From Erwinia sp. ErVv1 (GTDB lineage: Bacteria > Pseudomonadota > Gammaproteobacteria > Enterobacterales > Enterobacteriaceae): a stretch of 64,000 nt of DNA. Made by a program: the position numbers and the translations under genes. Below are positions 1 to 56,480 of this stretch, in pieces. How positions within the stretch are numbered: position 1 is the stretch's first letter; every line of letters begins with the position of its first letter. Where the stretch lies: NCBI RefSeq assembly GCF_900068895.1, contig NZ_CDPK01000003.1, positions 182,053 through 246,052 on the forward strand. The letters are read 5' to 3'. The notes under the pieces were generated by a model that was not told where the DNA came from, ran no database searches, and was given only the letters and a program-made list of their open reading frames with translations.

Positions 1-928
1 CAGGGATGTGCCGTCATGCCCGCTCCGAAAGGTCGACGAGCGGAGCGAAGGCACCGCGCAACGCGCGGCGCGAGGACCGCCTGGCACCGGGCACCACCCG
101 TTGGCGACACCCCAGGCCTGTGCAGCACCCGTAGGCGAATGCAACAGGCCTTTAGCTAACCAGGCCCCCATTGGCGATGGCACTGAGCCTTTACCTGGCA
201 AGGCACAACCCGCAGGCGACAGCACTGAGCCTTTAGCGCATCGTGCGCAACCCCCAGGCTACGGCCCTGAAGCTTTGGCACGGAGGTTGTCTTATTTGCA
301 GAGTTCTCTTTGCTTTAAACCTGCCCAAGAATCGCCTGTGACTCACGACACCGCCCGTAACCGCAGCCAGCAAAATGCAAAGGAGCAGACGGGTGGGGCC
401 CGGTGACAGGCATTCCGCAGCGCTGAGTGCAGAGAGGAAGACCCGGATGGGCCAGCAGGGATGCTGGCACAAGGGCATGCCGGGACAGGGATGTCCCGTC
501 ACTGCCCGCTCCGAAAGGTCGACGAGCGGAGCGAAGGCACCGCGCCACGCGCGGCGCGAGGACCGCCAGGCCCCGGGCCCCACCCGTTGGCGACACCCCA
601 GGCCTGTGCAGCACCGGGCTCCACCCGTTGGCGACACCCCAGGCCTGTGCAGCACCGGGCCCCACCCGTTGGCGACACCCCAGGCCTGTGCAGCACCGGG
701 CTCCACCCGTTGGCGACACCCCAGGTCTGTGCAGCACCGGGCTCCACCCGTTGGCGACACCCCAGGCCTGTGCAGCACCGGGCACCACCCGCAGGCGACA
801 CCCCAGGCCTGTGCAACACCGGGCACAACCCGCTGGCGACACCCCAGGCCTGTGCAGCATCAGGCACAACCCGCAGGCGACGGCACTGAGTCAATGCCGC
901 ATCGGCACTGTCGCTACATAATTTACGA
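1..928. repeat. 41-bp tandem repeat array within a larger direct duplication
   Basis: No gene is supported here. A GC-rich 41-bp unit containing CACCCGTTGGCGACACCCCA recurs at an exact 41-bp period, with unit starts at 581, 622, 663, 704, 745, 786, 827 and 868. The later copies are increasingly divergent. One clear copy lies at 105 and degenerate ones follow to about 290. The block at 3-130 is repeated almost exactly at 486-611, and both copies carry an inverted repeat GCTCC...GGAGC around a GTCGAC site. Because 41 is not a multiple of 3, open frames exist on both strands with repetitive Pro/Ala/Gly/Cys peptides. These are artefacts of the repeat, not genes. The array abuts the 3' end of the diguanylate cyclase gene. 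Confidence 0.9.
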
Positions 929-2473
929 CTACGCCTCACCGACCCGGTTTTTTCCCGACGCCTTCGCCCTGTAAAGTGCTTTATCCGCCAGACCGATCAG
1001 CGCCTGACGCGTGGCATCACCGCTGCCGCCCCCGATAACCTGCACCCCAACGCTCACGGTAACCAGCTTACTCTCTATATCGGTACTGGAATGCGGAATC
1101 GCCAGCGCTGCGATAGCGTCAACGGCATTATGGGCATAGCGCAGCGCTTCCTCGCGCTCGCTACCGGGCAGAATGACCGCAAACTCCTCACCCCCGTAGC
1201 GCGTAACGAGATCTTCAGGACCGCGCACCAGCTGCAACAGGGCGCTGCCGACCTGCTTCAGACACTCGTCTCCGGCCAGGTGTCCGTAGGTATCATTGAA
1301 ACGCTTGAAAAAATCGACGTCGATCATCAGCAGCGCAATCGGCGTTTTCAGCTTGTTAGCCCGCAACAGAGCACGATCCAGCCACAGATCGAACCGGCGT
1401 CGGTTGGCAAGCCCGGTCAGGCTATCGACCAGCGCCAGCGTTTGCAGCGTATGATTCATTGCGGTGAGCTGATCGCGAACCTGCGCCAGCTCCATTTGAT
1501 CCTGAATATGCTTGCTAAGATTGCGCAGCAGAAGGTAGCCCATCGCAACAATCACCAACAGCAGCATCACGCAGAGCACAAGATACATCACCAGATTGGC
1601 CATCAGGGCCTGCCGCAGCTGTGCACTGCCGTAGGCGACGGTCACAACCAATGGGTATCGCTTCAGCGTGGCATAGCCAAATATTCGCTCTACGCCGTCC
1701 AGAGTGGCCTTATAGGTGGCCGTACCGCTGGAGGCGCTTTTCAGCAGTCGATTAAACAGCGGACTATTGGAAATATTGAGGTTGATGGTATTGTCCGGGA
1801 AAGGACGCGCATATAGCACGGTGCCGTTGTTAAGCATCAGCGCCATCAGCCCCTGGTCGCCTATATTGTAATAGCTAAATATCTGCCGAAAATAATCAAT
1901 ACGCAGCGTGGCCAGCAGCACGCCGCGAAAGGAACCGTCCAGATTACTTAAGCGCATGGAGAGGGGGATAACCAGGTCGCCCGTCGAGCGGCTGCGAATA
2001 ACCTTACCAATATGCATTCCGGGATCGGTACTGCGTCGGTGGAAGCGAAAGTATTCGCGATCGCTGTTGTTACTGTGCTGCTGTAAAACCCCCTCGGAGG
2101 TCACCAGCCAGGTGCCTGTTGTATCGTAAATAAACAGGCCATGCAGCTGAGGCAGTGAATCTTTACGCTCACGAAGCAGGTTGGCAATATTTCTTTGCCG
2201 CTCGGTATCCAGCCCCATCAGATTAATGCGATCGCGGAGATCCTCGAGCGTCAGTTCCACCTGCAAAATGGAGTCTTCCGACTGTTTTGAAACTGACTGG
2301 GAAAGATTGCGTGCGTCATTTTCGGTCTCCCGTACCCCGCGCTGCCAGGTATCCATTATCATCCAGCCGTTCACCAGGATAACGGCCAGGCTGACGATAA
2401 ACAGAAAGGCGATCATTAATGTTCGCAGGCTGTTCATATTAACGTCAGGTGGCGATCGGGGTGGCGAAAACAT
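929..2473 (-). CDS. Membrane-bound diguanylate cyclase (GGDEF protein)
   Basis: Predicted to make cyclic di-GMP from two GTP at the inner membrane. An N-terminal membrane helix (about residues 17-38) is followed by a periplasmic sensor region of roughly 250 residues resembling a dCache domain. A second helix (about 305-330) and a short coiled linker lead to a C-terminal GGDEF domain. The active-site motif is GGEEF at about 427-431. The inhibitory I-site RxxD is not in its usual place: the upstream residues read RGPED, one position off, so product inhibition may be missing. The start at 2473 has a GGAG at good distance. An ATG at 2437 starts the typical MNSLRTL N-terminus but has a poor ribosome site. 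It occupies the neighbourhood where E. coli has the yliE/yliF cyclic-di-GMP genes. Its signal is unknown. Confidence 0.9.
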   Translation of the reverse strand: MFSPPRSPPDVNMNSLRTLMIAFLFIVSLAVILVNGWMIMDTWQRGVRETENDARNLSQSVSKQSEDSILQVELTLEDLRDRINLMGLDTERQRNIANLLRERKDSLPQLHGLFIYDTTGTWLVTSEGVLQQHSNNSDREYFRFHRRSTDPGMHIGKVIRSRSTGDLVIPLSMRLSNLDGSFRGVLLATLRIDYFRQIFSYYNIGDQGLMALMLNNGTVLYARPFPDNTINLNISNSPLFNRLLKSASSGTATYKATLDGVERIFGYATLKRYPLVVTVAYGSAQLRQALMANLVMYLVLCVMLLLVIVAMGYLLLRNLSKHIQDQMELAQVRDQLTAMNHTLQTLALVDSLTGLANRRRFDLWLDRALLRANKLKTPIALLMIDVDFFKRFNDTYGHLAGDECLKQVGSALLQLVRGPEDLVTRYGGEEFAVILPGSEREEALRYAHNAVDAIAALAIPHSSTDIESKLVTVSVGVQVIGGGSGDATRQALIGLADKALYRAKASGKNRVGEA

Positions 2474-18362: not shown

Positions 18363-18528
18363 TGTGGAAGCCGCTCTCTGACCGGTGTCACATTTCTCCG
18401 CTATGGTCCTGAGAAGCAGTTCTCTGACCCAGCGTTACATTTCTCCGCCATGGTCCTGAGAAGCGGCTCTCTGACCCGGCGTAATATCTCACCGCCACGC
18501 CCGGCAGAAGGGGTTATCTGACCCAGTT
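18363..18528. repeat. About 47-bp tandem repeats, three units and partial ends
   Basis: Units beginning at 18376, 18422 and 18469 read CTCTGACC...TTTCTCCGC...GGTCCTGAGAAGC, the third being more diverged. A fourth partial unit starts at 18516. It runs into the 3' end of the HAD phosphatase gene, whose last three codons and stop lie in the repeat. The first partial unit begins right after the yliI stop. Confidence 0.7.
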
Positions 18529-23815: not shown

Positions 23816-23848
23816 AAGAAAAAAACCCGCTAATCATTCGATTAACGG
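23816..23848 (-). terminator. ybjL terminator
   Basis: On the minus strand, a 10-bp stem (CCCGTTAATC / GATTAGCGGG, one mismatch) with a GAAT loop is followed by a long T-run. It lies about 90 bases after the ybjL stop. Confidence 0.8.
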
Positions 23849-23939
23849 GCTCCACAATTTGGGGATTTCAAAGAAAAGCAGTGGCACTAATTAGGACTGC
23901 GCGCTTAATTAAAAGTTCTCAGAAATTCCTAAATATTTT

Positions 23940-52925: not shown

Positions 52926-55900
52926 TTGAGCCAGGAATACACAGAAGATAAAGAAGTTTCCCTGCAACCTCTGAGCAGCGGGCGTCGCCTGCTGGAAGCG
53001 TTGCTGATTATTGTCGCTCTTTTCGCCATCTACCTGATGGTTGCGCTGGTGAGCTTCAATCCCTCCGATCCCAGCTGGTCACAGACTGCCTGGCATGAAC
53101 CTATCCATAACCTGGGCGGCGGTATTGGCGCATGGCTTGCGGATACGTTGTTCTTTATTTTCGGCGTAATGGCCTACGCCATCCCGCCGGTGATACTGGG
53201 CCTGTGCTGGATAACCTTTAGTCAGCGCCACTCTCAGGACTATATTGACTATTTTGCGGTCGGCCTGCGCTTGATTGGCGTGCTGGCGCTGGTAATCACT
53301 ACCTGTGGCCTGGCAGCGCTTAACGCGGATGATATCTGGTACTTTGCCTCCGGTGGGGTCATTGGCAGCCTGATTGTCAATGCAATGGCACCCTGGTTCA
53401 ACGGCGCTACCGGCACACTAACGCTGCTCTGCATCTGGGCCGCTGGGTTAACGCTCTATACCGGATGGTCATGGCTCACTATCGCCGAGAAAATTGGCGG
53501 CGCGGTGATGGGCGTGCTGACCTTCGCCAGCAATCGTTCACGTGACGATCGCCGCTGGCATGAAGACGACTACGAAGACGAAGACGCGGAGGAAGCGTCA
53601 TCTGTCGCTGCCCACTCACCAGCCGATCGACATGACGACGTGCTGCTGGGTTCCGCTGCCCGCCAGCCATCCGGTCATAATGATGACGACGTGCTGCTGG
53701 GTTCCGCTGCCCGTCAGCCGTCCGGACATAATGATGACGACGTGCTGCTGGCTTCTGCTGCCCGTCAGCCGTCCGGGCATAATGACGACGACGTGCTGCT
53801 GGGTTCCGCTGCCCGTCAGCCGTCAGGGCATAATGACGACGACGCGCTGCTGGCTTCTGCTGCCCGTCAGACATCCGTGCGAAATGATAACAATGCGCAG
53901 CTGGCTTCGACCGCCGCAGTAGCAACCGGTGCAGTAGCTGCTGCTGGGTCTACAGGTGCCGCGACCTTTGCACCTGTAAGAGAGGGCGCGTCCGTATACG
54001 ACACTGGCCCCGCCTCTGCTGCACAGGCAGAACCAGATCCAGAACTTTATCGCTTCGAGGTCCCGGCCGATACCCCAGCACCTTCAAGACCGGTAATGGA
54101 TGAAGACGATGGGCCGCAGATGGGTAACTGGCGTGAGGCTTCCTCTTCTTCACCCTTTGAGTTCACGGCCTCACCTGCCGTCCAGCCTGCTGATATCGCA
54201 GCTGGCCCGGCGGCGAATAATGCTGCGCCGCTGGCTACAACGGCAGCCTCGGCGGCAGCATTTATGCCCGGCTTTAGTGCCACCAGCGAGGGTCGCAATC
54301 CGCAGGTGAAGCAGGGGATCGGACCTTCGCTGCCCCGGCCAAACCCGGTTAAGCTGCCCACGCGGCGTGAACTGGCTTCCTATGGCATCAAACTGCCTTC
54401 TCAGCGTATTGCCGAGGAGAAAGCGAGAGAAGAGGAGCTGCGACAGCAGCAGGATGGGTCCGACTTACCGTTTGCCGCGCCTCAGAGTGAAGAGGCGATA
54501 CAGGAAGAAGCGCACCTGCGCGAAGCCTTTATGGCGCAGCAGCAGGTTCGTTATGGCGAAGAGTTGACCGGGGAGGATGAAGAGTCACAGCAGCAGGCCG
54601 CGCTGGCACGTCAGTTCAGTGAGCAGCAACAGCAGCGTTACGGTGAGGCTGCGGAACATCCGCAGTCGACCGCTAAGCTGAATACTGCTGGTGCCTTTGA
54701 TTTCTCTCCGCTTGACGATCTGGTGGATGATGGCCCACGCGAGCCCCTGTTCACGCTCTCAGCCATGCCGGAGTCAGAGCAGGAACAGCCGGCGGAACAG
54801 CCCCAGTGGCAGCAGCACAGTCAGCAGCCCGCTCAGCAAACCTCGGTTCCCTCGTGGCAGACTTCAGCCCCACAGGCTGAACCCGCTGCGCCACAGGCTG
54901 AACCTGCTGCGCCACAGCCGGAGCCCGTGGCGAAAGCGCCTGACAGCCTGTTCCATCCATTTTTGGTTCGCCATGAACAGCCGCTGGAGAAACCTACCAC
55001 GCCGCTGCCGACGCTGGATCTGCTTTCGGCTCCGCCCGTTGAGGCAGAGCCGGTTGATATGTTCGCTCTCGAGCAAACGGCACGGCTGGTTGAGGCACGT
55101 CTTGCCGACTATCGCGTCAAGGCGGAAGTGGTGGGTATCTCTCCAGGCCCGGTCATTACCCGTTTCGAACTGGATCTGGCGCCGGGCGTTAAAGCGGCAC
55201 GTATCTCTAACCTCTCCCGTGACCTTGCGCGCTCGCTCTCTGCCGTTGCGGTACGCGTGGTTGAGGTGATACCGGGTAAACCTTATGTCGGCCTGGAGCT
55301 TCCTAATAAGCATCGGCAGACGGTTTACATGCGTGAGGTGCTGGAGTGCGCTAAGTTCCGCGATAACCCTTCGCCGCTGGCGGTGGTGCTCGGTAAAGAT
55401 ATCGCCGGACAGCCGGTCGTCGCCGATCTGGCAAAAATGCCGCATCTGCTGGTCGCGGGTACCACCGGATCGGGTAAATCGGTTGGCGTTAACGCCATGA
55501 TCATCAGCATGCTGTATAAAGCCACGCCGGAAGAAGTGCGCTTTATTATGATCGATCCGAAAATGCTGGAACTGTCGGTCTATGAAGGTATTCCTCATCT
55601 GCTGACCGAAGTGGTTACCGATATGAAGGATGCGGCTAATGCGCTGCGCTGGAGCGTTGGCGAGATGGAACGCCGCTATAAGCTCATGTCAGCGCTGGGC
55701 GTACGTAACCTGGCCGGGTATAACGAGAAAATCGAGCAGGCAGAAGCGATGGGCCGACCGATTCCCGATCCGTTCTGGAAGCCGGGAGACAGCATGGATA
55801 TGACGCCGCCGGTGCTGGAAAAACTGCCCTACATCGTCGTGCTGGTCGATGAATTTGCCGATCTGATGATGGCGGTGGGTAAGAAAGTTGAAGAGCTGAT

Positions 55901-56480
55901 TGCCCGTCTCGCCCAGAAAGCCCGTGCGGCAGGTATCCACCTGGTCCTTGCCACGCAGCGTCCGTCGGTTGATGTGATTACCGGCCTGATTAAAGCTAAC
56001 ATTCCGACCCGTATCGCCTTTACCGTCTCCAGCAAGATTGATTCGCGCACGATCCTCGATCAGGCGGGCGCGGAATCCCTGCTGGGTATGGGGGATATGC
56101 TCTATATGCCGCCGAACTCATCAATGCCGGTGCGCGTTCACGGCGCTTTCGTCCGCGATCAGGAAGTGCATGCGGTGGTGCAGGACTGGAAGGCGCGCGG
56201 TCGTCCTCAGTACATTGAAAGCATTACCGCCGGTGAGGAGAGTGAAAGTGGTGGTCTGGGTCTGGACGGTGAGGAGGAGCTGGATCCGCTGTTCGATCAG
56301 GCGGTGCTGTTCGTGGTTGAAAAACGCCGGGCCTCTATTTCAGGCGTCCAGCGTCAGTTCCGCATTGGCTATAACCGTGCTGCACGGATCATTGAACAGA
56401 TGGAGGCACAGGGCATTGTTTCTTCTCCGGGCCATAACGGCAACCGCGAGGTGCTCTCCCCGCCGCCTCATGAAATGTAG
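52926..56480 (+). CDS. ftsK: DNA translocase FtsK
   Basis: Septal DNA pump that clears chromosomes at division and activates XerCD at dif. It has 1184 residues against 1329 in E. coli, the difference lying in the linker. Four N-terminal helices (about 25-190) anchor it at the septum. The linker (about 200-680) is rich in Gln, Pro and Ala and holds a 17-residue tandem repeat (236-330). The RecA-type motor has Walker A GTTGSGKS near 845. The winged-helix gamma domain at the end reads KOPS ([27 protein letters not shown]). The TTG start at 52926 follows GGAG, as in E. coli. Confidence 0.97.
53634..53915 (+). repeat. 51-bp tandem repeats inside ftsK (17-residue units)
   Basis: Four near-identical units [17 protein letters not shown] (G or A at position 6), then a degenerate unit ([16 protein letters not shown]) and a partial one. 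The codons of the units are almost identical, which shows recent tandem expansion. It lies in the linker, so copy number can change without touching the motor. Confidence 0.9.

Follow-up and report, generated by a model that had tools for sequence, protein, structure and literature searches.

The array of 41-bp repeats near the start of the window, the 64,000-nt stretch of the Erwinia sp. ErVv1 genome that was analysed, very probably forms the tail of an arm within a dispersed, REP-like element of two-arm design built on the TwoAYGGAY (RF01731) fold. What we describe is a known RNA family in a new, orderly genomic form, with the array explained as an iterated closing strand. An earlier note had described eight 41-bp units decaying toward one end only, and both observations hold: TRF reports an array at 573-881 (period 41, 7.5 copies, 94% matches, 0 indels, score 506), and when the eight units are walked from left to right, their identities to the 41-bp unit are 0.98, 0.98, 1.00, 0.95, 0.98, 0.90, 0.93 and 0.64, hence 0.95-1.00 for the first five and 0.64 for the rightmost. 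The suggestion that the array acts as a nucleic-acid structure was well founded, as each unit can base-pair with a strand that precedes the hairpins. A tie to the diguanylate cyclase gene in particular finds no support, since the array is the tail at one side of a two-arm element that recurs, in related form, at about 30 other loci; an effect on transcript ends is possible. The element sits between the cyclase gene, which is read on the minus strand and stops at 929, 48 bp past the TRF end of the array, and a convergent ABC-F gene. Non-coding remains the better reading of the array, but the argument offered for it, that the unit length is not a codon multiple, is weak, because both strands carry ORFs of 142-199 aa, in several frames, that cross the array. 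Elsewhere in the window, another tandem array lies between genes just past a stop codon (3.4 copies of 47 bp, positions 18367-18526) and is by eye unrelated to the 41-bp unit, and five in-frame 51-bp (17-aa) repeats (53632-53888) are found in the linker of a large FtsK-like ORF (52926-56480).

Table 1. Features of the element and its surroundings in window coordinates.
Feature	Position	Strand	Basis
Remainder of an upstream right arm with its second hairpin and closing stems, truncated at scaffold join	1..84	+	motif map; N before window base 1
Tail of truncated upstream arm: one clean 41-bp unit (0.98), then degenerate units; right boundary approximate	85..300	+	unit walk, sequence reading
Outer-stem 5' strand CGGGTGGGGCCCGGTG	390..405	+	pairs 13-16/16 with each array unit; fold of 385-600
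Arm body between two anchors conserved in Erwinia/Pantoea arms	415..564	+	sole anchor-pattern match in window; 0 in 100 shuffles
Rfam TwoAYGGAY (RF01731) match	445..512	+	45.5 bits, cut-off 43
Hairpin 1, loop AGGGAT	451..468	+	covariance model, fold
Hairpin 2, loop AGGGAT, contains ACAGGGAUGU	481..498	+	covariance model, fold; CsrA consensus (PMC7652899)
Third stem CGCTCCG ... CGGAGCG	507..533	+	fold
41-bp array: repeated outer-stem 3' strands, first at 571-586, then in 41-bp steps, with rightward decay	573..889	+	TRF, unit walk, pairing
Diguanylate cyclase gene (dCache + GGDEF), reading toward element	929..2473	-	ORF and domain search

The window arm spans 390 to approximately 890 and comprises the 5' strand of the outer stem, followed by two AGGGAT-loop hairpins, further stems and the array. 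It passes the covariance-model cut-off of TwoAYGGAY (45.5 bits against 43), a family published as a candidate RNA (PMC2864571). Read literally, the AYGGAY loop pattern fails in both window loops, whose second base is G; the model accepts them. Tandem G.A pairs in one stem, a trait of TwoAYGGAY (PMC4333381), are absent from both window hairpins in the fold; many arms from other genera show them on visual inspection. Rfam also places the RybB sRNA in the window (23817-23882, minus strand, 67.1 bits). Arms were further located with a pattern of two anchors 105-130 bases apart that holds no hairpin or GGA information. This yielded at least 110 stretches; among the matches listed, 79 of 80 titles are Pantoea or Erwinia and one is Enterobacter cancerogenus M004.

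The strand CGGGTGGGGCCCGGTG, which precedes the hairpins, is the exact complement of CACCGGGCCCCACCCG in the array. In the RNA fold of positions 385-600, an outer stem forms between 390-405 and the array (z = -5.44); the fold of 430-620, which leaves out the 5' strand, gives z = -3.07. With G.U pairs counted, window units 1 to 8 form 15, 16, 16, 16, 16, 15, 14 and 13 of 16 pairs with 390-405. In 70 right arms from two genomes, selected for two or more units and a 5' match of some kind (in a few, clearly not the true strand), units 1 to 3 form 14.8, 13.2 and 12.5 pairs against 11.0 for shuffled sequence, declining away from the head. Left arms have another sequence and follow the same rule: a 3' strand with at least 14 of 18 pairs was found in 53 of 54, and at least two such 3' windows occur in 41 of the 54, often spaced 45 or 57 bp apart. 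Some arms of P. coffeiphila and Erwinia sp. JUb26 repeat the closing strand too, as at L156, where five copies with 17-18 of 18 pairs follow each other in 56-bp steps. As the units pair with the arm's own 5' strand, the tail is the repeated closing strand of the arm.

The outer stem varies freely in sequence yet keeps pairing. For 28 distinct left-arm strand pairs, the Watson-Crick total of the arms' own strands is 441, compared with 415 ± 4.3 when permuted, and none of 10,000 permutations reaches 441. Unusual 5' strands (one arm in L098, both in L106) are accompanied by matching 3' strands (18/18), while the outer stem of another L098 arm pairs at 7 of 18 positions only. In two other species, P. 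coffeiphila and Erwinia sp. JUb26, 44 arms matching both anchors carry 43 different 5' strands, and own pairing is 16.2 of 18 against 8.4 for swapped strands (0 of 10,000), the own windows being the best within the flanks, with more offsets tried than for the swapped ones. With G.U counted, the same set gives 16.6 for own strands against 12.2 for the shuffled best; 40 of the 44 arms reach 15 pairs, and one stands at 11. When own and swapped strands were searched alike, using the 120 distinct arms with complete flanks among the matches listed, at least 15 of 18 pairs were obtained for 107 of 120 own and 131 of 1200 swapped combinations. These pairing figures and the apex counts given below ignore shared ancestry, and the 44-arm and 120-arm sets overlap in species. 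A cross-genus test on loose flanks, superseded by the anchored tests, was noisy (own flank first in 6 of 27), in part because copies within a species share stems. Mismatches in the outer stems of the 120 arms among the matches listed are purine.purine in 128 cases against 15 pyrimidine.pyrimidine, and G.T in 39 against 22 A.C. A smaller arm set gives 40 against 5 for the former comparison; its G.T to A.C count is 8 to 10, and the wobble signal is therefore weak.

For the two strongest hairpins per arm in the 120 arms among the matches listed, GGA occupies the apex in 211 of 231 and TCC in 5, compared with 19 of 121 for shuffled bodies, and the GGA-apex hairpins of this set carry 53 different stem strings. 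Inspection by eye of 22 cross-genus arms (20 genomes, 16 genus labels) found GGA in hairpin 1 of 21 and hairpin 2 of all 22, a count that is circular because these arms came via the Rfam model; a blind strongest-hairpin pass on the same arms often missed hairpin 2. Both strands of the arms fold well. The GGA apex, together with outer stems that are variable yet complementary, suggests that it is the fold of the GGA strand that is conserved. Taken with the outer-stem mismatches, these counts indicate that constraint acts on the GGA strand, though both strands fold.

The plan of the complete element was read from the loci of a same-species genome assembled in two contigs (G242): a tail of u units, left arm(s), a core, right arm(s) and a tail of t units. 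Left arms consist of the same parts as right arms, have another sequence and face away from them, and the window array is the tail t following the last right arm of the window. The TwoAYGGAY model gave no match to left arms of the element (L104). Both arm kinds are present in 26 of the 31 G242 loci fetched; of the other five, L106 carries a pair of left arms that face away from each other, and the remaining four hold a single arm or remnant. An arm can recur up to six times (L100), and tails reach up to 11 units (L096). The divergent arrangement recurs elsewhere, with 20 divergent, 1 tandem and 0 convergent arm neighbours within 800 bp (107 Rfam matches in eight other genomes) and 18 divergent, 6 tandem and 0 convergent in the P. 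coffeiphila and Erwinia sp. JUb26 loci. This two-arm layout appears to be new, as does a closing stem that is both iterated and hypervariable. In another congener (G003; L021, L033), the core between the arms holds long six-base runs (TTTGCC/TTTTGG), a third kind of tandem repeat.

The species has approximately 30 element loci. When other genomic copies of the unit were sought, as had been advised, array DNA was found to match 42 places in its own genome. TwoAYGGAY matches number 36 in that genome at E <= 0.001 and 44, 66 and 79 in three congeners, with no match in 7 of the 12 congeners searched; under stricter filters, the wider family has a match in 54 of 392 genomes. The elements lie downstream of genes, more than half of them between convergent pairs. 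Using a codon-score gene caller, which replaced an earlier crude-ORF pass, 18 of 31 G242 clusters were placed between convergent genes, compared with 8 of 47 adjacent gene pairs in the window (binomial p 3e-7). The P. coffeiphila and Erwinia sp. JUb26 loci give 10 of 19 between convergent and none between divergent genes (20 loci minus L161, which has no arm by the anchors). For arms located blind to GGA among the matches listed, the figures are 55 of 99 and 2, with 23 arms left out for want of a called gene within 3 kb on one or other side. Both flanking genes are co-oriented with the arm in 21 of these 99 arms among the matches listed and both opposed in 21; with both strands folding, gene context is neutral on the GGA strand, and strand choice by gene context was rejected as uninformative. 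On a plasmid of Pantoea sp. X85 (L068), a related arm lies in the gap of the facing genes clcA and ampR.

At the window locus, the cyclase and ABC-F genes stand face-to-face in six relatives with a called gap of at most 176 bp (36-176 bp in five; none is left in G005, whose called cyclase stop falls late), which is too short to hold the element. The two genes are 2419 bp apart in G242, and G002, G012 and G007 have another neighbour at this locus. The ends of the element are variable arrays, and the element-free relatives are too diverged at the gap to place these ends. In one of these, G006 (L077), the 36-bp gap is a hairpin with the loop AGGAGC, and the counterpart in G011 is a hairpin that lacks GGA.

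A G242 counterpart could be assigned by its flanks for all 28 stretches of the ErVv1 genome (G000) that were compared, so the element locations are old. Their content is not fixed. Comparing units between strains, again a suggestion of the earlier note, revealed that the two distal units of the window array are common to both genomes and that the head-proximal part differs: the clean units are replaced in G242 by other, mostly degenerate units and an arm remnant. The predicted variability in unit number is thus seen, as a different count and content at the same locus. Of 53 arrays, 49 are more uniform in the half near the head, and leaving out the last unit gives 25 of 32, as expected of local duplication beside the head. 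We infer that such duplication probably drives array growth: repeated local duplication, by slippage or template switching, would extend the array next to a very stable head, and because the duplication would occur beside the head, fresh units would adjoin it and old units drift outward.

Hairpin 2 of the window reads GGGACAGGGAUGUCCC and contains ACAGGGAUGU, which fits the CsrA SELEX consensus RUACARGGAUGU (PMC7652899). ANGGAN is the loop in NMR structures of RsmE, and SELEX hairpins mostly have at most 4 base pairs (PMC7652899); the stems of the element hairpins are longer than most of these. Like CsrA-sequestering RNAs, the arms repeat GGA in hairpin loops, and TwoAYGGAY has been predicted to bind CsrA (PMC4333381). 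The ErVv1 genome has one CsrA gene. No experimental test of any TwoAYGGAY function, CsrA binding included, was found in the open-licence literature, and searches of it for CsrA with REPs, Erwinia/Pantoea repeats and CsrA sponge repeats turned up nothing on these elements in titles and abstract openings. Predicted CsrA binding is the likeliest role, and we put it forward tentatively as the working one. Since the arms face apart, transcription through the whole element would yield an RNA with a GGA-strand arm whichever side it came from. Read-through transcription would in this way read one arm set in the GGA orientation, and the paired GGA hairpins would bind CsrA as a 3'-UTR site or a decoy. 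Internal outward promoters find no support: sigma-70-like sites in the cores are not above chance in three scans (1 against 4.6 ± 2.4 expected; 2 against 4.2 ± 1.9 in a second set; 0 against 0.5 in a third). Taken as a whole, an account in which a two-arm TwoAYGGAY element with a duplication-grown array presents CsrA-binding hairpins on read-through transcripts has, in our judgement, an even chance of being correct.

It is quite possible that the element is instead a passenger at the DNA level, a REP/MITE-like palindrome that survives at gene 3' ends, where insertion costs little, and whose hairpins serve its own spread or maintenance and whose stems and array are by-products of replication. 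Template switching at palindromes can restore stem pairing without selection, and would here maintain the stems. The cores show no promoter signal above chance, tandem arms and tails are plentiful, and the location bias matches that reported for REPs (PMC3733652). However, a GGA apex that persists across 53 different stems on one strand only (matches listed) is not expected from correction alone, and the excess of purine.purine over pyrimidine.pyrimidine mismatches among the matches listed likewise argues against it. All 28 compared loci are common to two strains and give no sign of recent movement, and the five Erwinia-group genomes with most copies have no Y1 transposase. Mobilisation of the REP/RAYT type was set aside: the ErVv1 genome has no Y1 transposase, and the 7 of 20 genomes that have one are not those with the highest copy numbers. 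Specifically, none was found in G000, G242, G003, G006, G011 and G040; G373 (29 copies) gave a weak match, and G047, G175 and G236 gave clear ones. The GTAG tag is absent from either 130-150-base arm consensus of the species. CGTC follows hairpin 2 of the right arm, and assignment to the CGTC-tagged REPs was rejected, the stems of these nearly always beginning with AT and their loops having 4-5 bases (PMC3733652).

An improbable alternative is a bidirectional 3'-end module, in which the arms end or protect the transcripts of convergent genes and the complement of the GGA strand is what matters. The tail-side gene does face the arm in 76 of 99 cases among the matches listed (median 104 bp), some tails begin within a few bases of a stop codon, and both strands fold; the strand-specific GGA apex and the purine.purine mismatch excess argue against such a module, and several flanking genes appear from their sequence to retain an ordinary terminator.

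The array itself is free of N. Close to the left edge of the window, outside it, there are N joins at C3:181364, 181665-181833 and 182052, the third of them directly preceding window position 1, so that the arm number, and perhaps the unit number, depends on the draft assembly. In G000 draft contigs (e.g. L048, L054, L058, L060), overlapping contig ends are N-joined inside elements, with copies duplicated or cut, which makes G000 arm counts unreliable. Although such joins with duplicated ends occur inside many copies, one of them right before window base 1, an assembly artefact is highly improbable, as the two-contig G242 has arms and tails at this locus with common distal units, and tails of up to 11 units elsewhere (L096).

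Under the preferred reading of a two-arm element, TwoAYGGAY gains an architecture, namely two divergent arms downstream of genes, a hypervariable paired closing stem and iterated closing strands, and named genomes of Erwinia and Pantoea supply more than 100 arms. The CsrA binding guessed at in print thereby becomes directly testable. If it is true, repeats dismissed as intergenic filler could affect a global regulator; if false, the elements provide a clean natural system for hairpin-bred tandem repeats in bacteria. The G242 loci hold 99 arms, and CsrA docking would place up to approximately 200 CsrA-type hairpins in the genome besides any CsrB/CsrC. A further step, that this is a dispersed, self-elongating family of CsrA docking elements whose tails serve as spare closing strands keeping a drifting outer stem formable, we regard as doubtful.

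Compared with TwoAYGGAY as known, the window arm likewise has two adjacent GGA-loop hairpins within an outer stem, but here two arms make up the element, each closing stem is specific to its arm, and tandem tails are attached. CsrB, CsrC and RsmX/Y/Z also present several GGA-loop hairpins, and ACAGGGAUGU fits the SELEX consensus; in contrast to a single sRNA gene, the copies described here are dispersed and intergenic and show no promoter signal above chance, and their CsrA binding is a prediction. REPs are intergenic palindromes that occur in oppositely oriented pairs and often lie between convergent genes (PMC3733652). The arms resemble REPs, BIMEs and REPINs in being intergenic palindromes, mostly downstream of genes, often oppositely paired and often between convergent genes, and differ in their 150-bp length, conserved GGA loops, variable stems, lack of GTAG and lack of a RAYT in the highest-copy genomes. 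As in VNTRs and minisatellites, near-identical tandem units vary in number between strains, but in this case each unit is complementary to a strand of the adjoining fold, and related arrays are found at many loci.
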